Source: Williamsia deligens
Lineage (GTDB): Bacteria; Actinomycetota; Actinomycetes; Mycobacteriales; Mycobacteriaceae
Direction: 5' to 3'
DNA: 64,000 nt
Assembly (NCBI RefSeq): GCF_024171765.1
Contig: NZ_JAMTCI010000002.1
Span: 124,001-188,000 of the forward strand
The position numbers and the translations under genes are program-made. This document shows positions 16,443-26,703 of the stretch, in pieces (position 1 is the stretch's first letter; every line of letters starts with the position of its first letter). A model generated the notes under the pieces. That model did not search any database. It was not told where the DNA came from and saw nothing but the letters and a program-made list of their open reading frames with translations.

Positions 16443-17510
16443 GTGGTCACCCCAGTCCCGGTGTTGCTCGACTGCGACACCGGCATCGACGATTCCCTCG
16501 CGATCCTCTACCTGTTGTCGCACCCGTCGGCGGAGCTCGGCCCTGTCGTCTCGACCGCGGGCAACGTCCCGGCGGATGTCGTGTGCGCCAACAACCTCGC
16601 GTGGATGTCGCTCTGTGGTCGCGACGACATCGAGGTCTGTCTCGGTGAGGTATCACCGTTGGTCGCACCTCTGCGCACCACCGAGGACACGCACGGACCG
16701 TTGGGTGTCGGGTACGCCGAGCTCCCGCCGGGCGTGACGACGGCGTCCTCGCGTTCCGGGGTCGACGCGTGGATCGAGACGACGGCGGCGCGTCCCGGTG
16801 AGATCGTCGGGTTGGTGACCGGGCCGTTGACGACCCTCGCCCGCGCGATCCAGGCCGACCCCGGCCTGCCGACACGCCTGCGTCGCCTCGTCATCATGGG
16901 CGGCGCGTTCGGTCATCCCGGCAACACGACACCGACCTCGGAATGGAACGTCGCCGTCGACCCCGAGGCGGCGAAGGTCGTCTTCGCCGCGTTCGGCGTC
17001 GACGGTGCACCCGAACCGATCGTCTGCCCCCTGGACCTGACGGAGTCGATCGTGTTCACCCCGGACCATCTCGGGCGGCTCGCCGCCGCGGCCGGCAGCG
17101 AACCCGTCGAGCAGCCGACCCCCGAGGACGACCACGGCACGCGGTCCGTCGCCTCCAACGTCGTGGTCCGGCACGTCGTCGACGCCGTGCGGTTCTACTT
17201 CGAGTTCCACGCCGACCACGACGAGGGCTACATCGCCCACATGCACGATCCGTTCGCGGCGGCCGTGGCGCTCGATCCCGCGATCGTCGGCACGCGTGCC
17301 GCCGTGGTGGATGTCGAGATCGACGGGACACTCACCCGGGGTACGACGGTCGCCGACACCCGGGGCATGTGGGGTCGACCGGTCAACGCCCGCATCGCCG
17401 AGTCGACCGACGCCGACGCGGTTCTCGACGACATCGTCGACCGCATCGCGGAACTGGCGTTGCGGGTGCAGGCACGGATCGACGATCAGCCCGGTGGGTT
17501 GCGTCCGTAG
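16443..17510 (+). CDS. Nucleoside hydrolase (inosine-uridine preferring type)
   Basis: Hydrolyses the N-glycosidic bond of ribonucleosides to base and ribose for salvage. 355 residues. The calcium and ribose site Asp-Cys-Asp-Thr-Gly-Ile-Asp-Asp is at 10-17, a Gly-Pro-Leu-Thr-Thr-Leu motif near 122-127, Ile-Met-Gly-Gly-Ala-Phe near 151, and Trp-Asn-Val-Ala-Val-Asp-Pro-Glu-Ala with a later His-Asp-Pro for the active-site His and Asp. Its final 25 bases overlap the convergent glycosyltransferase gene. Base preference cannot be read. Confidence 0.92.
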   Translation: MVTPVPVLLDCDTGIDDSLAILYLLSHPSAELGPVVSTAGNVPADVVCANNLAWMSLCGRDDIEVCLGEVSPLVAPLRTTEDTHGPLGVGYAELPPGVTTASSRSGVDAWIETTAARPGEIVGLVTGPLTTLARAIQADPGLPTRLRRLVIMGGAFGHPGNTTPTSEWNVAVDPEAAKVVFAAFGVDGAPEPIVCPLDLTESIVFTPDHLGRLAAAAGSEPVEQPTPEDDHGTRSVASNVVVRHVVDAVRFYFEFHADHDEGYIAHMHDPFAAAVALDPAIVGTRAAVVDVEIDGTLTRGTTVADTRGMWGRPVNARIAESTDADAVLDDIVDRIAELALRVQARIDDQPGGLRP

Positions 17511-18580
17511 AAGTCGAGGTGCGCCTGTGCAGCGGCCTCCCAGGTGAGCGACTGTGCGAGCCGGCGACCCGGTCCGGGGTCCGGTGATCCGCCGGTGACG
17601 CCCTGCGTCAGCGCATCGGCCAGTCCGGGGATGTCGGCGGCGTAGGAGACGCTGTCGCCGAACACCTCTCGCAACACCGGCAGGTCGCGGGTCACCACGG
17701 GCCGCCCGGCGGCGAGTGCCTCCATCGCGGCCAGCCCGAAACCCTCCTTGACCGACGGGAACGCGAACACGTCGCATGCGGCGACCAGGGACGGGAGTCG
17801 ATCCTCGGCGACGGGGCCCAGCACCGTCGGGTGGGCACCGAGTTCGTGCGCCCGCCGGTCGAAGGCCGCCCGGTACTCGCGGTAGTCGAACAGCGTCTCG
17901 CCGCCCGCGATCACCAACCCGAGGTCGGGATGGGTGACCCGCATCGCGGCCCACGCCTCGAGCAGGTCGAGAGTTCCCTTGCGGGGTTCGATGCCGCCGA
18001 CGGCGAGAACGAAGTCCCCCAGCTGATCTCGCCACCGCGTCCGTGCCGCGACGGCGGCGTCGTCGTCGGCCGCGGCTGCGGCGAACCTGCCGGCGTCGAC
18101 GCCGTTGGGGATGACGGTGGGGGTCAGGCCCCAGCCGTCGCGGACCTCGGTCGCCACCGCGGCCGAGACACAGATGTGGGCGTAGGGCTCCACGACCGCC
18201 TTCTCGTGGCAGCGGACGAGGACCGGTGTCGTGAAGGTGTCGAGGTGGTGGATGGTGCGGATGCAGCGGCCCACGGCGTTCGCGCTGATGCAGTCCTGGG
18301 CGTGGACGATGTCGAACTCGCGCGGGTCGACGGCGGCGCCGAGCGTGGCGATCGAGGCCACGATGCGGTCGGTGACCGACTGCCCCTCGCGGTCGGGGAA
18401 CGGCACGAGGCGTATGTCGACTCGCGGGTCGACGGGCCGGAAGAACCCGGGGTCACCGCCGCGTGCCAGTGACCACACGGTGACGTCGGCGCCGGCATCG
18501 GCCAGCGCCTCCGCGAGGTTCAACGTGTGGACCACTCCACCGCGGGGTCGTGTCGAGTAGGTGAGCAGCGCGATCTTCAC
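17486..18580 (-). CDS. MSMEG_0565 family glycosyltransferase (GT4-like)
   Basis: 364 residues, GT-B fold. N-terminal Gly-Gly-Val-Val-His-Thr-Leu-Asn-Leu acceptor loop near residues 14-22; C-terminal donor site with Gly-Gly-Ile-Glu-Pro-Arg-Lys-Gly near 203-210 and Pro-Ser-Val-Lys-Glu-Gly-Phe-Gly-Leu-Ala-Ala-Met-Glu-Ala, the E-x7-E motif of GT4 enzymes. This family is found with Nit1 nitrilase clusters, so a glycosylated product or intermediate is likely. GTG start overlaps the upstream stop as GTGA. It is the last gene of the nine-gene unit and overlaps the nucleoside hydrolase end by 25 bases. The sugar and acceptor are unknown. Confidence 0.88.
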   Translation of the reverse strand: MKIALLTYSTRPRGGVVHTLNLAEALADAGADVTVWSLARGGDPGFFRPVDPRVDIRLVPFPDREGQSVTDRIVASIATLGAAVDPREFDIVHAQDCISANAVGRCIRTIHHLDTFTTPVLVRCHEKAVVEPYAHICVSAAVATEVRDGWGLTPTVIPNGVDAGRFAAAAADDDAAVAARTRWRDQLGDFVLAVGGIEPRKGTLDLLEAWAAMRVTHPDLGLVIAGGETLFDYREYRAAFDRRAHELGAHPTVLGPVAEDRLPSLVAACDVFAFPSVKEGFGLAAMEALAAGRPVVTRDLPVLREVFGDSVSYAADIPGLADALTQGVTGGSPDPGPGRRLAQSLTWEAAAQAHLDFYGRNPPG

Positions 18581-19452
18581 GTCATCATCCGATCGGCCCC
18601 GGACGGGTCGGCGGTCTCGACTCCGACCCGGTAGGTGTCCTCGCGTCGTTCTCTGAGGTGGTCGAGAACACGACGCGCACGGGCGATCTCGGCGGCGATG
18701 TCCATCGTGACGGTGGCCACCCCGCCTTTCGACCGCGTCGTGGCGAGGACCTCCCCACCGGGGCCGACCACCTTGGCCTGGCCGAGGAAGCGCAGGCTGC
18801 CCATGACGCCGGTCTGGTTGGCGGAGACCACGACCACCTGGTTCTCGGCGGCTCGTGCCGCGTCGTACAGGTCGAAGAGGCGGGACTGCCGATCCGCCGG
18901 CAGCTGGGAGGCGCGGTCGGTGATGCTGGCCGGCCACGCCGAGAGAGTGGCGACGACGTGCGCACCGTCGAGTGCGAGGGTCCGCGCCGACTCGGGGAAG
19001 GTCTTGTCGTAGTCGATGAGCATCCCCATGCGTCCGACCGGGGTGTCGAACGCCGCGAACCGGTCCCCGGGGACGAAAGCCTGTGCCTCGCCCACGGGTT
19101 GGTGCACCTTGCGATGCACGCCGAGCACACCGTCCCCCGTCAGGCAGACGGCGGTGTTGTGGAGGCGGCCGCCCTGCGCCCCCTCGGTGAGACCGAGGCA
19201 CACGGTCATGTCGCCGGCGGCGGCCGCGATGGAGCCGAGTTCGTGGCCGTCGACGTCGACCGGTGGGGGCAGCTCCGTGAGGTCGGGGTCACGCAGATCG
19301 CCTATGTAGCCTCCGAGGCAGGCGTGCGGCAGGACGAGCAGTGCGACACCGTCGCGCCGGGCGGCCTCCACGATGCCGAGCACCTTCGCCACGGACCGGT
19401 CGAGGTCGCGGCCGAAGTGGGCGGCGACGGCGCCGAGGACGATCGGGGTCAC
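18577..19452 (-). CDS. Carbon-nitrogen hydrolase-fold protein lacking catalytic Glu and Cys (pseudo-nitrilase)
   Basis: 291 residues, clearly a nitrilase-superfamily fold and a close relative of the intact nitrilase at 25741-26622: shared blocks include Arg-Lys-Val-His-Gln-Pro, Leu-Ser-Ala-Trp-Pro-Ala, Gly-Ser-Leu-Arg and Ala-Lys-Val-Val. Of the Glu-Lys-Cys triad only K115 remains. The Glu position is H43 (Leu-Pro-His-Ala-Cys) and the nucleophile Cys is D147 (Leu-Ile-Asp-Tyr-Asp-Lys). Both substitutions need at least two base changes, so they are not simple read errors. The gene is intact and coupled to its neighbours, which suggests a conserved non-nitrilase role such as a partner subunit or binding protein. 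Start GTG 19452, 10 bases after the GNAT-AIR gene. Confidence 0.88.
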   Translation of the reverse strand: MTPIVLGAVAAHFGRDLDRSVAKVLGIVEAARRDGVALLVLPHACLGGYIGDLRDPDLTELPPPVDVDGHELGSIAAAAGDMTVCLGLTEGAQGGRLHNTAVCLTGDGVLGVHRKVHQPVGEAQAFVPGDRFAAFDTPVGRMGMLIDYDKTFPESARTLALDGAHVVATLSAWPASITDRASQLPADRQSRLFDLYDAARAAENQVVVVSANQTGVMGSLRFLGQAKVVGPGGEVLATTRSKGGVATVTMDIAAEIARARRVLDHLRERREDTYRVGVETADPSGADRMMT

Positions 19453-19462
19453 GGCGGTGCTC

Positions 19463-20944
19463 TCACGCCCGGCCGAGGCCGGTGACCGAGGCCGCGATCG
19501 CCACCGTCTCGACGCCGTCGGGCCACCTGAGACGCACGCCCGGCTCGGCGGTGAGATGTCCGCAGGCGGCGCTGACGACGCCGCCGGGCAGCGTCGCGGC
19601 CGGTGCGTCGGCTGCGTCGCCGGAGTCGGCGGTCAGCATCCCGAATCCGGGGAAGCAGGTCAGCCAGGACCCCATGTCGGCCCCGGACGGTCGTGGAGTG
19701 GCGGCCACGTCGATGCAGGCGCCCGTCCCACCGGCCTCGGCGAGCATCCCGGTGGTCCCGACGACACCCGCCATGGACACGTCCTTCGCCGCATGGGGCG
19801 ACATCCGCGCGACCAGGCCCGTCAGCGCCCGGAGATCCTGTGGTGGACGCGCAGAGGTCGAGTCCCACTGCGCGCCGGTGTACCCCGGCCTCCATCCGCC
19901 GGTGAGGTCGGCGGTGAGCCGCAGAATGTCGCCCACTCGCCCTCCTCCACCGGGCACGGGGGTGGACGTCCGACCCAGAGCGGTGACGGCCACCGACGCC
20001 GGCACCCCGACCTGGGTGTGTCCCCCCAGCACGGGGACGTCCCACGCCGCCGATGCGGCGGCGACACCACGGATGATGCGGGTCAGTTGTGAGGTGGTGC
20101 GGGCTCCGACCGCGTCGAGCAGGGCTGTCGGGGCCGCTCCCATCGCGATGAGGTCGTTGAGGTTGACCAGGACCGAACACCATCCCGCCCACCACGGGTC
20201 CCTGTCGACCATCGACGGCAGGATCGCGTCACACGCGGCCACGACGTCCGTGCCGGGCACGGGCACACCGTCGTCGCCGACGAACCCCCGCGGTCCCAGA
20301 CCGGCGGGATGCCCGCGCAACGGCTCCAGGACGTCGGCCAGGAACGCCTTGGCACCGTCCGCGGTGCGTTGCAGCCGGTCCATCGGACGACGCATGTGGA
20401 CATGGGGCACACTGCCTATCGCCGTGTCACCGTGCGACGTCCACCCGAGTCGGTGGAAGAGACCACGATGGCGTGCGTTCACACAGGCGTCGAACCGGAG
20501 GACGCCACGGTTCTCCGCGTGGGCGACAGCCGCACGCACGAGCGCCGAAGCGATCTCGGTGCCGCGTCGGTGGGGGGCGACCACGAGGCGGCTCCCGGTC
20601 CACCAGCCGAGGTCGTGCTCCCCCACCGGCGCGATGCGGACCCCGCCGACGACGTCGCCGTCGGCGTCCACGGCGACGAGCACCACCGTCCGCTCGTCGA
20701 GGTCGATCTCGTCGACGTCGCTGTGCGAGAACACCTGCTGGGTGTCGACGAACACCGCACGGCGGAGCTGTCGGTACTGCGCGTGCTGCGCGGCGGTCTC
20801 GGCGGTGGTGACGAGGAACCCGGGGCTGCGCGCACCGCGAGGGCTTGGCAGGCCCTCCAGGATCGACATCGGCCCGGTGGTCGCGAGGCGGGACACCACA
20901 TCGGCGTCGATCGTGCCGTCGATGGTCTGCCCGCCGCCGATCAT
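19463..20944 (-). CDS. MSMEG_0567/Sll0787-type fusion: GNAT acetyltransferase plus AIR synthase-like domain
   Basis: 493 residues. About 45-165 is a GNAT domain (Arg-Leu-Val-Val-Ala-Pro-His-Arg-Arg-Gly-Thr-Glu-Ile acetyl-CoA loop, Gly-Trp near 158). About 185-490 resembles AIR synthase/selenophosphate synthetase proteins, with an Asn-Leu-Asn-Asp-Leu-Ile-Ala-Met-Gly-Ala-Ala-Pro motif and a Gly-Gly-His-Thr-Gln motif for ATP and metal. In Synechocystis and Pseudomonas Nit1 clusters these are two separate genes (NitE and NitF). The start overlaps the radical SAM stop as ATGA. It suggests acetylation and ATP-dependent phosphorylation or cyclisation of one intermediate; the chemistry is unproven. 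Confidence 0.9.
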   Translation of the reverse strand: MIGGGQTIDGTIDADVVSRLATTGPMSILEGLPSPRGARSPGFLVTTAETAAQHAQYRQLRRAVFVDTQQVFSHSDVDEIDLDERTVVLVAVDADGDVVGGVRIAPVGEHDLGWWTGSRLVVAPHRRGTEIASALVRAAVAHAENRGVLRFDACVNARHRGLFHRLGWTSHGDTAIGSVPHVHMRRPMDRLQRTADGAKAFLADVLEPLRGHPAGLGPRGFVGDDGVPVPGTDVVAACDAILPSMVDRDPWWAGWCSVLVNLNDLIAMGAAPTALLDAVGARTTSQLTRIIRGVAAASAAWDVPVLGGHTQVGVPASVAVTALGRTSTPVPGGGGRVGDILRLTADLTGGWRPGYTGAQWDSTSARPPQDLRALTGLVARMSPHAAKDVSMAGVVGTTGMLAEAGGTGACIDVAATPRPSGADMGSWLTCFPGFGMLTADSGDAADAPAATLPGGVVSAACGHLTAEPGVRLRWPDGVETVAIAASVTGLGRA

Positions 20945-21996
20945 CCGCCCACCGCCGGTAGGACGCTGCACGCACCGCAGGCGGCACATCCGGCGCGCTG
21001 GTCCGCTCCGGCCATCCCGGCGACCACCAGACCGTCGGCGACCGCGCGGGCGACCTTCTCGTACACCGCTGCGTCCGGGGGGCCGGCGCGATCGATCTCG
21101 ACGGCCAGTGACCCGGGATGCGGACGGTACGGGACCACGAAGGGATAGACGCCCATGTCGATGAGTTCGCCTGCCCCTGCGACCATCTCGTCGGGATCCT
21201 CGCCGAGGCCGACGATGAGGTAGGTCGAGACCTGGTTGTGCCCGAACACCCGGACGGCCTCCGCCCAGGCCGCGCGGTACTCCGCCAGCGGGACGGTCGC
21301 CTTCCCGGGCATCCACCGACGCCGGACGTCGTCGTCGAGGGATTCGACGTGGATGCCGATCGCGTCGGCGCCGGCGTCGCGGAGTTCGGTGATGACGGCG
21401 AGATCGGCCGGAGGCTCGCACTGCACCTGGATCGGGAGCTCCGGTACCGCTGCACGCACCGCGCGGACGCAGCGGGCGAGATGCACCGCACCCCGGTCAC
21501 GCCCGTTCGAGGTCCCGGTCGTCATCACCATCTGCGTCACGCCGTCGAGATCGACCGCGGCCCTGGCGACATCCGCGAGGTCCGACGGACGTTTCACCGC
21601 CACCGTCGATCCCGCGCGCAGCGATTCCTCGATGGTGCAGAACCGACACCGCTGATCGGGGGCGTAGCGGACGCAGGTCTGCACGACGGTGGTGGCGAGG
21701 ACGTCGCGACCGTGCAGGCGTGCGATCTTCTCGTAGGCCACGCCGTCCGCGGTGTGGCCGTCGTAGAAGCGTGGTCGCGCGATCGTCTGGACCGTCATGC
21801 CGGTCTCCGACCCGTCCATGAGGATCCGGTCGCCGTCGAAGACATACGGGCTGAGCGGGTTCCGCGGTATCGCCGCATGGAGTCCGTCGACGACGAGATG
21901 ACCGTCGGCACTGGGCCCGGCGCCCGCACCGCGGGACACCGGTGGGTCGCCGCGGATGCCGAGCAGGGCCAGGTCGACGCGGGTGGAGACCGACAT
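20941..21996 (-). CDS. MSMEG_0568 family radical SAM protein
   Basis: 351 residues. The cluster motif is unusual: C108, C117 and C120, a C-x8-C-x2-C spacing instead of C-x3-C-x2-C. A second cysteine group C337, C340, C343 (CxxCxxC) near the C-terminus could bind an auxiliary Fe-S cluster. Glu/Asp-rich and Gly-rich strands typical of a partial TIM barrel follow the motif. It corresponds to NitD of the Nit1C cluster, which has been tied genetically to cyanide assimilation in Pseudomonas; the reaction is not known. It begins 6 bases after the MSMEG_0572-type gene and overlaps the fusion gene downstream. Confidence 0.92.
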   Translation of the reverse strand: MSVSTRVDLALLGIRGDPPVSRGAGAGPSADGHLVVDGLHAAIPRNPLSPYVFDGDRILMDGSETGMTVQTIARPRFYDGHTADGVAYEKIARLHGRDVLATTVVQTCVRYAPDQRCRFCTIEESLRAGSTVAVKRPSDLADVARAAVDLDGVTQMVMTTGTSNGRDRGAVHLARCVRAVRAAVPELPIQVQCEPPADLAVITELRDAGADAIGIHVESLDDDVRRRWMPGKATVPLAEYRAAWAEAVRVFGHNQVSTYLIVGLGEDPDEMVAGAGELIDMGVYPFVVPYRPHPGSLAVEIDRAGPPDAAVYEKVARAVADGLVVAGMAGADQRAGCAACGACSVLPAVGG

Positions 21997-22002
21997 CGTC
22001 GA

Positions 22003-22527
22003 TCAGACCATGTAGGTGGAGTTGATGATCGCGCCCTTGCGGGCGTAGTGGATCACCGCGTCCTGGACGTCGAGCGGGTGCGCCGGGATGACGCCGGCGA
22101 TGAGGTCTTCCTCGCGTCCGCCGTGCAGGGCGAGGCCGAAGCGGCAGCAGTAGACGGTGCCGCCCTCGCCGATGAAGGTCTCCAGCGAGTTGTTGATGTT
22201 CTGCTCACCCGGGAACCCCGAGTCACCGGTCGTCGGGAACCCCCGTGTCGCCAGACAGTTGATGGCGCCGGGACCGTAGAAGTAGATGGCGGACTCGAAT
22301 CCCTTGCGCAGGGCGCGGGTCGCCTGCAGGACGGCGACGAAGCTGACCGACGACTCGTGGGCGATGCCGTGGACCATCGTGAAGTAGGTCTCGCCGTCCT
22401 CCGCCTGGTAGTCGGGGAAGAGTTTCGTCCCACCGTAGATGTTCGAACCCTTCGGCAGCGACGGGTGCGGGATCTCGGCGAGGGACGTGGCGATGTTGGC
22501 GGCGATGGTGTCGTCGATCTCGGACAT
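22003..22527 (-). CDS. MSMEG_0572 (Sll0783) family nitrogen starvation response protein
   Basis: 174 residues. Compact alpha/beta protein with Tyr-Phe-Tyr-Gly-Pro-Gly-Ala near 89-95, a Tyr-Cys-Cys-Arg-Phe-Gly motif near 131-136 and a conserved C-terminus ending in Asn-Ser-Thr-Tyr-Met-Val. Sll0783 in Synechocystis is strongly induced by nitrogen starvation and affects polyhydroxybutyrate; the biochemical role is unknown. Start ATG 22527 is preceded by GGAGG inside a GGAGGACCTCC palindrome that abuts the start codon. A 113-base gap separates it from the upstream ligase gene, so an internal promoter is possible. Confidence 0.92.
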   Translation of the reverse strand: MSEIDDTIAANIATSLAEIPHPSLPKGSNIYGGTKLFPDYQAEDGETYFTMVHGIAHESSVSFVAVLQATRALRKGFESAIYFYGPGAINCLATRGFPTTGDSGFPGEQNINNSLETFIGEGGTVYCCRFGLALHGGREEDLIAGVIPAHPLDVQDAVIHYARKGAIINSTYMV

Positions 22528-22640: not shown

Positions 22641-24137
22641 TTACAACGAGACTCGTGTGTTGCCACGAGGTTTCGGTGTGCGCACGGTCCGCCGCACCTT
22701 GCCGGCGCTGTCGCGGATGGGGCGCCGTTGGACGTCGATCCGTCCCGCCGCGCAGTGGCGGCCGAGCACCGCGTGCGCGAACGTGCGGACAGATGCGTCG
22801 ACACCGTCGTCGGACCCGTCGATGTCGACGACGGCGTGCAGGGCCGGCCGGCCTCCGTCGGCGGGGTGCACCACGCAGTCCGCGACCGCGGCGTGGGTCA
22901 TCAGCTCCGCCTCCACTGCGGCGAGGTCCACGGTGCGTTCGCCGCACGGGATGCGGTCGGTCGCGCGGCCGACCAGGTGGAGATAGCCGTCCTGGTCGAG
23001 GAATCCCAGATCGCCTGCGGTGTCCCAGCCGTCGGCCGTACGAGCAGACCGTCCACCGACGTAGTCGTAGCGGGGCGGCCCACCGCGACGCATCCAGACG
23101 GTCCCCACCTCCCCCGCGGGCAGCGTGCGGCCCGCGTCGTCCCGGATGCTGATAGCGGTGTCGCCGACACCGCGACCGACGCTGCCGGGTCTTCTCAGCC
23201 ACTCGTCCCCACGGATCATGGTGAGCCCGAACGATTCGCTGCTGGCGTAGACCTCGACGACGCGCTCCGCGCCGAGCCAGTCGATGAGCGCCTGCTTGTC
23301 CGCGGGATCGCACGGGCCGCCGATGTGCAGCACGGTCTGCAGGGTCGGCAGATCGGCGCGCGTCGAGGCCGGGACGCGGACGAGGCGCCGCAAGAGTGTC
23401 GGGGAGGCGAGGGCCCAGGTGACCTCGTGTCGACGGATGACGTCGGGGAGCTCGGCGACCGGCATGCCGGTCGCCAGGACGATCCGGTGGTCGGTCATCA
23501 CGCCGCGCATCGCGTAGGTGAACGCGGCGGAGTGCCACAGGTCGGAGGTGATGAGCTGCACCGACCGCCGCGGGAGGAAGTCCGCGATCGGCCGGTCGGG
23601 GTCGAATCGTGCCGGTGCGGTGGAACGCACGATCTTCCGCGTGCCGGTGCTGCCGGAGGTGGTCGTGGCCTTCCACGACCTGGCCGCGATCCCGGACGTC
23701 GCGACCGTGTCGGTGGACGGGGCCGGCGTGGTCGGCACGTCCCCTGCGGGAACACACGGGAGGGCCGACCCCGGCGGCCGATGGCCGATCACCGCGGTCG
23801 GACACGCCAGGGCGTCGAGATGCCGCCGTTCCGTCACCGACATCCGCGGGTCGACGGGGAGAGGGGTGGCCCCGGCCGTCCAGACGGCGACCGTCGCGAC
23901 GACGGCGTCGATGGTGGTGGGCATGGACACGGTGACGAGATCGTCGCGGCTCACGCCGATGACCTGCAGCCGTCGAGCGAGTGCGGCGGCGGCCGTCGCG
24001 AGGGCACGCGCCGTCATGGTCGTGCCCGTGCGGGCGTCGACCACCACCACGTCCTCGGGTCGGCGACGGGCGCGGTCGGCGACGAGGTCGCCGATGGACC
24101 TCTCCCCCGTCGCCGATCCGAATGCGTCCGGTGTCAT
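22641..24137 (-). CDS. AMP-forming acid-CoA ligase-like protein in the Nit1 cluster
   Basis: 498 residues of the ANL superfamily. ATP loop Thr-Thr-Ser-Gly-Ser-Thr-Gly-Thr-Arg-Lys near 180-189, a Tyr-Ala-Ser-Ser-Glu-Ser motif, Thr-Ala-Gly-Asp-Leu-Gly with the ribose Asp, and a late Gly-Lys-Val-Arg with the catalytic Lys. The C-terminal domain ends soon after. It starts one base after the flavoprotein stop, so it is clearly part of the operon. It activates an unknown carboxylate as an adenylate; whether the acceptor is CoA, a carrier or an amine cannot be read. No carrier protein gene is present nearby. Confidence 0.88.
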   Translation of the reverse strand: MTPDAFGSATGERSIGDLVADRARRRPEDVVVVDARTGTTMTARALATAAAALARRLQVIGVSRDDLVTVSMPTTIDAVVATVAVWTAGATPLPVDPRMSVTERRHLDALACPTAVIGHRPPGSALPCVPAGDVPTTPAPSTDTVATSGIAARSWKATTTSGSTGTRKIVRSTAPARFDPDRPIADFLPRRSVQLITSDLWHSAAFTYAMRGVMTDHRIVLATGMPVAELPDVIRRHEVTWALASPTLLRRLVRVPASTRADLPTLQTVLHIGGPCDPADKQALIDWLGAERVVEVYASSESFGLTMIRGDEWLRRPGSVGRGVGDTAISIRDDAGRTLPAGEVGTVWMRRGGPPRYDYVGGRSARTADGWDTAGDLGFLDQDGYLHLVGRATDRIPCGERTVDLAAVEAELMTHAAVADCVVHPADGGRPALHAVVDIDGSDDGVDASVRTFAHAVLGRHCAAGRIDVQRRPIRDSAGKVRRTVRTPKPRGNTRVSL

Positions 24138-24138
24138 C

Positions 24139-25422
24139 TCATCCGTTCGCGGCGAGGCGCAGTCCGCTGCGTGTCCCGATCCTGCCGCCGATCACCTCCG
24201 CCACATGGCGGGCGTCGGTGTCGATGCCGAGGAACCGGCCCGAACCCCACGTGTGCATCCACGGCAGGCCGATGAAGCTGAGACCCGGGACCTCGGTGAC
24301 GCCGCGCGTCTGCATGGGACGCCCCGCGCCGTCGAAGGCGCTGGCCTCGATCCACGACCAGTCCGGCCGGTAGCCGATGCACCAGATCACCGTGGTGATC
24401 CCGGCGGCGTCGATGTCGATGCTGGTGGGATCGGTGGCGGGTTCCCACACCGGGCTGTAGCGCGACGGGGCGGGTGCGTCGATGCCCTCACGCTCTATGA
24501 AGCGGTCGATGTCGGCGCAGATCGAGTTGTAGGTGGCGTCAGCGGCGTCCAGAGCCGCCGTCAGTGTGGGGGCGGCGTGGAGATGGGTGCCGTCGCAGTC
24601 GGTGAGTGCGCCGTAGAGCTGCATGCCCTCGAGGGCGAAGGCACGCAGGTCGACATCGCGTCCGCCGTCGCGTCCGGTGACGTAGTGGTTGGTCTTCTCG
24701 CGGGCGGGTGCGCCGCCGGGGTACTGGGCGACGGGGGTGTCGTAGAGACCCATGTCCGCCAACCAGGTCATGACGTCCCGACCGCGGTACCTCCGGGCGA
24801 CCCGCGGCGCCCCACCGACGGCGAGGTGCACGGAGCGGCCGGCGAGGTGGAGGTCCTCGGCGATCTGCGCGCCGGATTGGCCGGTGCCGACGACGAGGAC
24901 GGCGCCGTCGGGCAGGTCTGCGGGGTTGCGGTACTGCTCGGCGTGCATCTGGTGGACGCCGGCAGGGATGCGGGCGGCGAACGGTGGGATCACGGGCACC
25001 TGATAGCCGCCGGTGGCGACGACGACCTCGTCGCACGTCAGCTCCGTCGGCTCGCCCCCGTCCGTCGGGTTCAAAGACAGCGCGAAACCGCCCGTGGTGT
25101 CGTGACGGAGTCGGGTGACGGTGGTGTGCGTGCGCACCGGCGGGCGGGATTTCTCCAGCCACCGGTCCAGCCACGCGACCACCTCGTCGCGGGTCATGAA
25201 CCCGTCGGGGTCCTCCCCGTCGTAGGCGTGGCCCGGCAGACGGCAGTGCCAGTTCGGGGTCACGAGTGTGAACGCGTCCCAACGGGTGTCGGCCCAGTGG
25301 TGCATCGGGGTCTCGGATTCGAGCACGACGTGGTCGACACCGGACTGCGCGAGATACCAGCTGACGGACAGCCCCGCCTGCCCGCCACCGACGATCGCGA
25401 CGGTGACGTGATCGGCGCTCAT
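24139..25422 (-). CDS. MSMEG_0569 family flavin-dependent oxidoreductase
   Basis: 427 residues. FAD loop Gly-Gly-Gly-Gln-Ala-Gly at 12-17, a second dinucleotide loop Val-Gly-Thr-Gly-Gln-Ser-Gly near 183-189, and a C-terminal Gly-Tyr-Arg-Pro-Asp-Trp region, as in flavin monooxygenases of the FMO/CzcO type that use NADPH. It corresponds to NitH of the Nit1C cluster. Probably oxygenates an N- or C-centre of the cluster intermediate; the substrate is unknown. Start overlaps the preceding stop as ATGA. Confidence 0.92.
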   Translation of the reverse strand: MSADHVTVAIVGGGQAGLSVSWYLAQSGVDHVVLESETPMHHWADTRWDAFTLVTPNWHCRLPGHAYDGEDPDGFMTRDEVVAWLDRWLEKSRPPVRTHTTVTRLRHDTTGGFALSLNPTDGGEPTELTCDEVVVATGGYQVPVIPPFAARIPAGVHQMHAEQYRNPADLPDGAVLVVGTGQSGAQIAEDLHLAGRSVHLAVGGAPRVARRYRGRDVMTWLADMGLYDTPVAQYPGGAPAREKTNHYVTGRDGGRDVDLRAFALEGMQLYGALTDCDGTHLHAAPTLTAALDAADATYNSICADIDRFIEREGIDAPAPSRYSPVWEPATDPTSIDIDAAGITTVIWCIGYRPDWSWIEASAFDGAGRPMQTRGVTEVPGLSFIGLPWMHTWGSGRFLGIDTDARHVAEVIGGRIGTRSGLRLAANG

Positions 25423-25748
25423 CGGCGGGCCCCGGCTGATGTGGCCGAGGAGGTCTCGGCGGGGAGCGGAGGATGCATCGCGAGGACGGTCATGATCGCG
25501 TCGGCCGCGAAATCCGCTGCACGCTCGGTGATGTGCTCGGCGGTGGCCATCGCCGAGGTGCACGCGAACCCGTACTTCGCGCGGACACGCTCGGCGGCCA
25601 CTGCGAGGGCCTCGGTCGCACGCGTGGTGAAGTCGGTGACGGTGTAGTCGGAGCCGGCCTGCAGGTGATCGTGCATGACCAGGCTCGGCGAGTAGCAGTC
25701 GTCGAGGGTGCCGTCGGGCCAGCGGACGGTCACTGTCATCTCAGGCAT
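25419..25748 (-). CDS. MSMEG_0570 family nitrogen starvation response protein
   Basis: 109 residues. Begins Met-Pro-Glu-Met and carries Val-Arg-Trp-Pro-Asp-Gly near 8-13 and Cys-Tyr-Ser-Pro-Ser near 18-22, typical of this small family (NitG type). ATG 25748 is chosen because the Met-Pro-Glu-Met opening is common in the family as I recall it; it overlaps the nitrilase end by 8 bases. ATG 25739 would avoid the overlap. No enzymatic motif; it may be a carrier, chaperone or subunit. Confidence 0.88.
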   Translation of the reverse strand: MPEMTVTVRWPDGTLDDCYSPSLVMHDHLQAGSDYTVTDFTTRATEALAVAAERVRAKYGFACTSAMATAEHITERAADFAADAIMTVLAMHPPLPAETSSATSAGARR

Positions 25749-26622
25749 GGGTCAGATTCCCCCGGGTCAGGGCCTCGTAGACGTCGGGGCGGCGGTCGCG
25801 CAGGTGGAACATCCCCGCGCGCATCGCGGCGAACGTGCCGTCGATGTCGACGTCGGCGATCGCGAGGCCGGAGTCGAGGAGAGTGGTGGCGAGGACGTTG
25901 CCGCCCGGGTCGACCACCTTGGCGTTGCCCACATACCGCAGCGAGCCGAATGTCCCCGACTGGTTCGACGCCACCCAGAACACCTGGTTGTCGAGGGCGC
26001 GGGCCGAGTCGAACAGGTTGAAGCGGTAGGTCCACCGGTCCTGCTGCAGGTCCTCGGCGGTGGCCGTCCGAGCCGCAGGCCACGCCGACAGGCTCGCGAT
26101 GATCTGCGCGCCGTCGAGCGCCATCACCCGGGCGGCCTCTGGAAATGCTTTGTCGTAACAGATCTGGAGACCCACCCGGCCGACTGGCGTGTCGAACACG
26201 CCGTAGGCGTCCCCGGACGCATACGACAGGTTCTCCCCCAGCGGCTGATGCACCTTGCGGTAGTTGCCGTAGACGCCGCTCCCGTCGAGCACGGCCGCGG
26301 CGTTGAACCGTGTCGGGGTACCGGACTCGTCGTCGGCGAGTTCGCAGAACCCGATCGCGACGAGCATGTCTCCGGCGATCTCCCCCACCCGTGCCAGTTC
26401 GGGGCCGTCGAGGGTGATCGCGGGCGGGAGCGAGACCGCCGAATCTCTCTGCTTGTCACCGTGATTGCCCAGCGACGAGAGGTAGCCGCCGATGGCCGCC
26501 TCCGGCAGGACGAGGAAGTCGACGTCGCGGGCACGGGCCTGGGCGACGAGATCGCTGATGAGGGCGTAGTTCTGGTCGAGGTCACGCGTGAAGTTGGCGG
26601 ACGCTGCGGCGATGGTGGTCAT
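25741..26622 (-). CDS. Nit1-type nitrilase (carbon-nitrogen hydrolase)
   Basis: Converts nitriles to carboxylates and ammonia. 293 residues with the full catalytic triad E41 (Leu-Pro-Glu-Ala), K123 (Tyr-Arg-Lys-Val-His-Gln-Pro) and C155 (Gln-Ile-Cys-Tyr-Asp), plus the helper Glu E130. First gene of the Nit1C-type cluster; the corresponding NitC in Pseudomonas fluorescens has been linked to growth on cyanide as nitrogen source. An AGGAGAG ribosome site lies six bases before ATG 26622. A GlnR-like operator lies 66-81 bases upstream, consistent with nitrogen-limitation control. Confidence 0.92.
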   Translation of the reverse strand: MTTIAAASANFTRDLDQNYALISDLVAQARARDVDFLVLPEAAIGGYLSSLGNHGDKQRDSAVSLPPAITLDGPELARVGEIAGDMLVAIGFCELADDESGTPTRFNAAAVLDGSGVYGNYRKVHQPLGENLSYASGDAYGVFDTPVGRVGLQICYDKAFPEAARVMALDGAQIIASLSAWPAARTATAEDLQQDRWTYRFNLFDSARALDNQVFWVASNQSGTFGSLRYVGNAKVVDPGGNVLATTLLDSGLAIADVDIDGTFAAMRAGMFHLRDRRPDVYEALTRGNLTHA

Positions 26623-26687: not shown

Positions 26688-26703
26688 GTTGCGTGGTGGT
26701 TAC
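26688..26703 (-). promoter_or_regulatory. GlnR operator upstream of the nitrilase cluster
   Basis: On the minus strand GTAAC-CACCAC-GCAAC, matching the GTNAC-N6-GNAAC pair bound by actinobacterial GlnR without a mismatch at the key positions. It lies 66-81 bases before the nitrilase start codon. No further half-site is found at 11-base spacing on either side. Confidence 0.65.

Follow-up and report, generated by a model that had tools for sequence, protein, structure and literature searches.

A conserved cysteine-less subfamily of the nitrilase superfamily in gpr/Nit1C-type operons of Williamsia deligens and other actinobacteria

Gene content and organization of the operon

The window, meaning the whole 64,000-nucleotide stretch of Williamsia deligens DNA analysed here, contains two nitrilase-related genes, which we call NitA and NitB, on one strand and in the same run of genes (Table 1). 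From the promoter side, the order of this operon is NitB, MSMEG_0570, MSMEG_0569, the acyl-CoA-ligase-like gene, MSMEG_0572, MSMEG_0568, the MSMEG_0567-type fusion, NitA and MSMEG_0565. The profiles TIGR04047, TIGR04045 with TIGR04050, TIGR04043, TIGR04046, TIGR04042 and TIGR04044 are all matched over their cut-offs, which identifies it as an operon of the gpr/Nit1C type.

Table 1. Genes, catalytic codons and a putative regulatory site of the operon, in window coordinates.
Feature	Position	Strand	Remarks
MSMEG_0565-family glycosyltransferase	17486..18580	minus	TIGR04047, 458.8 bits (cut-off 259.85); GTG start
NitA	18577..19452	minus	Nitrilase-fold protein (predicted), 291 aa, GTG start
Asp147, codon GAC	19012..19014	minus	Occupies nucleophile Cys position
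Glu122, codon GAG	19087..19089	minus	Second Glu of the tetrad, kept
Lys115, codon AAG	19108..19110	minus	Catalytic Lys, kept
His43, codon CAC	19324..19326	minus	Occupies general-base Glu position
GNAT and AIR-synthase-like fusion, MSMEG_0567 family	19463..20944	minus	TIGR04045 and TIGR04050
MSMEG_0568-family radical SAM protein	20941..21996	minus	TIGR04043
MSMEG_0572/Sll0783-family protein	22003..22479	minus	TIGR04044
AMP-binding acyl-CoA-ligase-like protein	22641..24137	minus	Present in a minority of related clusters
MSMEG_0569-family flavin oxidoreductase	24139..25563	minus	TIGR04046
MSMEG_0570-family protein	25419..25748	minus	TIGR04042; start within NitB end
NitB	25741..26622	minus	Intact paralog, E41-K123-E130-C155
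GlnR-box-like site	26688..26703	minus	66-81 bases upstream of NitB; by sequence alone, no better than chance

The GTG start of the glycosyltransferase overlaps the NitA stop by four bases (GTGA), and the MSMEG_0570-type gene begins within the last bases of NitB, the two overlapping at 25741-25748. A selenoprotein read-through has been proposed for MSMEG_0571 in the cited part of PMC6039565; an ordinary stop codon overlapped by the start of the next gene may account for it instead. The true start of the MSMEG_0569-type gene probably lies near 25404, since the family match begins at residue 54 of the frame. The acyl-CoA-ligase-like gene is inserted in the operon, and 16 of the 77 peptide-search loci, judged from their listed gene orders, have one. 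With the consensus that we take to describe the GlnR box, the window yields three matches where 1.37 are expected, a number reached in 19 of 100 shuffles, and a site of this kind precedes NitB in five of 48 related loci, all five from Williamsia; a GlnR box upstream of NitB is suggestive only.

Catalytic positions and family assignment

NitA scores over the curated cut-off of CN_hydrolase (Pfam PF00795), and its predicted model has the nitrilase fold. The original prediction, that NitA carries H43-K115-D147 where its operon paralog has E41-K123-C155, was confirmed in the sequence, and the fourth residue of the tetrad, E122, is unchanged in the window. Neither protein reaches the cut-off of the Nit6803 nitrilase profile TIGR04048 (502.6 bits; NitA 27.4, NitB 35.3), which we take to be the subfamily-1 type of the 2005 description of the Nit1C cluster, and a profile search found nothing over that cut-off anywhere in this genome. 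Both also fall below the cut-off of the N-carbamoylputrescine amidase profile TIGR03381 (410.25 bits; NitA 83.5, NitB 97.9), as does NitA, at 96.7 bits, for the nitrilase profile NF040852 (nitrile_Arch; 500 bits).

Conservation of Asp147 across actinobacteria

Relatives were collected by profile searches in three overlapping samples, which gave matches in 82 of 301 genomes at family level and 49 of 394 at class level (both at E 1e-60), and in 9 of 396 at phylum level (E 1e-45). So that NitA would not be picked by the residue in question, all recovered sequences of at least 240 aa were grouped on identity after columns 43 and 147 had been masked. NitA emerged as a single group (205 rows, with some genomes represented more than once), in which only the Lys of the Glu-Lys-Cys triad is kept: none of the 205 rows has Cys or Glu at the respective position. 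Among all recovered sequences of this length, no row outside the NitA group has Asp at position 147; L240, which falls in the NitB group and has Ser in place of the Cys, was left out of NitA. Asp147 is found in all 84 NitA genomes of the profile and whole-protein searches, which span 16 families and include the window's own genome; of the 80 NitA genomes of the family sample (family f1), 48 were scored in the masked grouping and 32 were left out. It is likewise found in 80 of 80 NitA records of a peptide-search set, which overlaps the former in organisms and is biased, one of its two search peptides having contained Asp147. The original prediction had named homologs with Glu and Cys restored as evidence against it; no scored member of the NitA group has either residue at its position, so this objection does not arise.

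The general-base position behaves differently from position 147. Counted by genome (n = 84), the tetrads are D-K-E-D in 69, G-K-E-D in seven, H-K-E-D in six, and Q-K-E-D and D-K-D-D in one each, so the window's His43 is a minority state beside Asp, Gly and Gln. In the peptide-search set, Asp occupies the Glu position in 75 records and His in five (two Williamsia, Smaragdicoccus, a Nocardiaceae bacterium and Dietzia). Lys115 is present in 137 of 137 NitA rows, and Glu122, which corresponds to the second conserved Glu (Glu132 of MtCPA), is Glu in 136, the window included, and Asp in one. Of the 142 NitB-group rows, 141 are E-K-E-C, the exception being L240 (G, N, gap, S), and so are 71 of the 72 NitB matches of the peptide-search set. 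The 72nd (L102:1308-1820, Williamsia sp. 1138) is a NitB frame without the N-terminal part that bears Glu and Lys, and the NitA gene adjoining it is intact. One record titled Kitasatospora arboriphila (L069) holds a NitA 73% identical to the window's, and may be mislabelled or contaminated.

Phylogeny and selection

A quick tree built on 86 rows sets the NitA type on one side of a branch with SH-aLRT 94, just below the 95 mark, beside four stand-alone E-K-E-C proteins from other lineages (support 83). With NitA forming a clade, the change from Cys to Asp is best read as a single event, and on this tree the NitA branch would have a single actinobacterial origin, from Glu-Lys-Glu-Cys ancestors. 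Six changes at position 43 (three to H, two to G, one to Q) are placed on a quick tree of 77 NitA sequences, four of them forced by well-supported branches, and position 147 stays constant across NitA while position 43 wanders. This pattern is unlike that of a merely dead site, where drift would be expected at both positions.

The Ka/Ks of the window's NitA against four relatives is 0.15-0.22, indicating purifying selection; other genes of the operon give 0.08-0.17 (NitB), 0.09-0.16 (radical SAM) and 0.23-0.27 (glycosyltransferase). Across 91 loci holding all seven genes, NitA and the radical-SAM enzyme differ in mean identity by no more than 0.02 in each of the four distance bins (most populated bin: 0.69 against 0.70). 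Compared with NitB, NitA has the higher identity in the two bins of greater distance (most populated bin: 0.69 against 0.60) and in 2740 of 4084 pairs overall, but not in the two closer bins (closest bin: 0.90 against 0.92). The more distant NitB of some lineages, with 56-65% identity to that of the window, contributes to this excess.

Residues of the pocket

Pocket positions were taken from sequence alignment to MtCPA, in which Glu48 and Glu132 are assigned to Cys158 activation and substrate orientation in the cited part of PMC4812014. NitA keeps the equivalents of Tyr54, Lys121, His123, Pro125 and Asp160 in 137 of 137 rows, in addition to that of Glu132, and has none for Glu48 and Cys158; we infer from this that covalent hydrolysis has been lost and a Lys-Glu-Asp site remains. 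Position 189 is Q in 137/137 NitA rows against W in 119/124 NitB rows, position 151 is T in 136/137 against A in 105/124, and position 202 is A against L. Position 192 is L in 77/77 and R in 72/72 of two non-redundant sets (NitA and NitB, respectively) that were picked by residue, the evidence lying in the columns other than 43 and 147. The differences at 147, 151, 189, 192 and 202 suggest a site that was altered at several places and then fixed. Position 177, in the stretch between about residues 169 and 188 where the HMM and MAFFT alignments disagree, is V or I in NitA against Arg in 118/124 NitB rows, and Arg191 of NitA is mostly absent from NitB. Arg180 as a counterpart of MtCPA Glu187 was dropped because the two alignment methods disagree. 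A metal site, hinted at by the exchange of Asp and His at position 43, was also rejected, as Gly and Gln occur there too.

Gene neighbourhood and distribution

The glycosyltransferase gene lies directly downstream of NitA in 108 of 111 D-type loci, and in loci longer than 8 kb with both genes the two are on the same strand with a gap of -80 to 200 bases (108/108, some genomes being counted twice). The three remaining cases are L200, where no cluster gene was found near NitA, L214, with no glycosyltransferase in the 17 kb of the locus, and L076, which has none by NitA and ends soon after it. Such gene coupling is not proof of a shared step. At L200:8342-9205, a D-K-E-D NitA precedes an aldose-1-epimerase gene, and neither NitB nor the radical-SAM gene was found in its genome.

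By a tally of the class-sample listing, a second match, in the NitB range, accompanies NitA in 32 of 33 genomes, and 16 of the 49 matching genomes have a NitB-type gene without NitA, all 16 of them E-K-E-C. All 16 NitA-less loci retain the glycosyltransferase, so NitA is not required for it. In the family sample, 80 of 80 NitA genomes have a further match with an E value of 1e-60 or lower among the matches listed, which are partly typed. Of the 99 loci holding both NitA and NitB, 11 have the two side by side, and their matches lie on different contigs in the two genomes checked (those of L040 and L069); an apparent absence of NitB at L040 was discarded on this ground. In one genome (G744), NitA occurs with neither NitB nor the radical-SAM gene at the thresholds used, and the next gene encodes an aldose-1-epimerase, as given above for L200. 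This distribution suggests that NitA nearly always accompanies the pathway, is unneeded by NitB and is not strictly dependent on it.

Fourteen loci of one family (L184-L191 and L193-L198, family f104) are without NitA; there, a different FAD enzyme, of 532 and 599 aa in the two examined, takes the place of the MSMEG_0569 type between NitB and the glycosyltransferase. A strict tie of NitA to the MSMEG_0569 flavoenzyme was considered, 14 of the 16 NitA-less loci having the other FAD enzyme, yet rejected on its exceptions: NitA occurs together with the other FAD enzyme in L206 and L224, and L192 and L199 lack NitA but have the 0569 type.

In genus g42, three genomes have a second locus with a NitB-like protein (L239:7025-7807, L240:7304-8095 and L241:7461-8180); it has lost the stretch bearing the catalytic Lys and the second Glu, and its nucleophile position is Cys, Ser or Gly. 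The alternative FAD enzyme adjoins this gene in L240 and L241, and L239 carries a radical-SAM-like frame that is divergent and, judged by eye, seems short of one cluster cysteine. These loci may represent a second, independent lineage of altered nitrilases.

Proposed function of NitA

NitA is a conserved cysteine-less subfamily of the nitrilase superfamily, and not a product of decay. Asp stands for Cys in every close relative examined, so the role of NitA is probably not the textbook reaction: lacking both Cys and the general-base Glu, it would be incapable of the covalent thioester chemistry of nitrilases and amidases. A ligand-binding protein or a new Asp-based chemistry is favoured. The Lys-Glu-Asp pocket would bind a small pathway metabolite, probably other than the substrate of NitB, and would either carry out non-covalent acid-base chemistry on it or hold it for the glycosyltransferase step; NitB would perform Cys-dependent hydrolysis elsewhere in the pathway. 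That a non-covalent pocket of this kind acts on or holds a metabolite near the glycosyltransferase step is our predicted function, for which we see even chances. A bolder reading, which we hold less likely than not, is that NitA is an enzyme whose fold has exchanged covalent hydrolysis by Cys for acid-base chemistry by Asp, Lys and Glu, directed at a nitrogen-starvation metabolite and carried out beside the glycosyltransferase. The original prediction had envisaged chemistry by the His/Asp pair; the Asp is indeed constant, but the His varies, and the set that is constant is Lys-Glu-Asp (Glu replaced by Asp in one).

Somewhat unlikely, in our estimate, is that NitA is purely a ligand-binding or sensor pseudoenzyme, in which Asp147 forms a salt bridge with Lys115 or binds a cationic group. 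A purely structural Asp-Lys salt bridge would yield identical conservation, the pair would compensate itself, and Cys and Glu are lost with the rest of the pocket conserved. The lack in NitA of two NitB arginines (Leu at 192, Val or Ile at 177), together with the gained Asp, fits a less anionic ligand, although the Arg191 of NitA weakens this point, and the retention of K115, E122 and D147 together as a polar set speaks against a pocket that only binds.

The original prediction also raised a subunit of the intact nitrilase, that is, a non-catalytic regulatory or structural partner forming prozyme-like mixed dimers with NitB. The second matches in 32 of 33 and 80 of 80 NitA genomes fit such a partner, as does the shared gene run; in nitrilase-fold oligomers, moreover, the dimer mate helps to wall the active-site entrance, according to the cited part of PMC4812014. 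The idea has lost ground nonetheless, and we consider it improbable: NitB occurs alone in 16 of 49 class-level genomes and NitA alone in one, the genes are rarely neighbours, NitA is intact beside the truncated NitB frame of L102, and its own pocket residues are nearly invariant over 137 rows. An obligate NitA-NitB heteromer is weakened by the same NitB-only genomes and the one NitA-only genome, the phyletic pattern speaking against obligate partnership. Decay or sequencing error, which the loss of two catalytic residues and the clusters without NitA might suggest, is refuted, as originally predicted, by Asp147 in 84 of 84 genomes from 16 families and 80 of 80 records, the Ka/Ks of 0.15-0.22, an identity that tracks the radical-SAM enzyme, the intact frame and the tight gene spacing.

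If NitA is indeed an acid-base enzyme, it would represent a new chemistry for the superfamily, hidden beneath "carbon-nitrogen hydrolase" annotations; three of four Rhodococcus plasmid records, matched by identity alone at 65-66%, are so annotated and the fourth is unannotated. A fixed Asp with a drifting Glu position amounts to a natural experiment on the nitrilase fold without its cysteine, and NitA offers a way to approach the chemistry, still unsolved, of the Nit1C/gpr clusters. We found no description of a Cys-to-Asp nitrilase branch in the open-access PMC literature, subscription journals and non-PMC preprints being outside the scope of the search.

Comparison with known systems

NitA shares with the CN_hydrolase enzymes of PF00795 (MtCPA and the Pyrococcus amidase 6ypa) the fold, the catalytic Lys, the second Glu and, Cys excepted, the sequence of the nucleophile elbow, and differs from them in the Asp that replaces the Cys nucleophile and in a general-base Glu that is lost and variable. 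By analogy only, the isochorismatase/nicotinamidase fold, which is unrelated, is an amidohydrolase fold where loss of Cys accompanies a different chemistry.

The Nit1C cluster is built around another nitrilase type in the cited part of Podar et al. 2005 (PMC1199592). Its YchN-like, radical SAM, GNAT and AIR-synthase-like genes, ORF of about 100 aa and FAD oxidoreductase have counterparts in the window, and a glycosyltransferase is reported there with Nit1C in two betaproteobacteria. The window differs in having two other CN hydrolases, one of them Cys-less, in a genome with no TIGR04048 match over cut-off, and in its extra acyl-CoA-ligase-like gene.

The gpr operon MSMEG_0565-0572 of M. smegmatis consists of the same gene families; according to the cited part of PMC6039565, it is GlnR-induced and its deletion makes nitrogen-starved cells sensitive to peroxide. 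NitA occupies the MSMEG_0566 slot, adjoining the MSMEG_0565-type glycosyltransferase, and from gene order and family we infer that it is the MSMEG_0566 equivalent. The cited part of PMC4222082 lists msmeg_0566 at 8.94 among the nitrogen-starvation-responsive genes of M. smegmatis. The residues of MSMEG_0566 are presumably those of the other mycobacterial NitA proteins in the peptide-search set, all with Asp at the Cys position. The cited part of PMC6039565 presents MSMEG_0566 as a putative aliphatic amidase with a potential contribution to nitrogen assimilation, an unlikely function for the M. smegmatis counterpart should the nucleophile be absent throughout.
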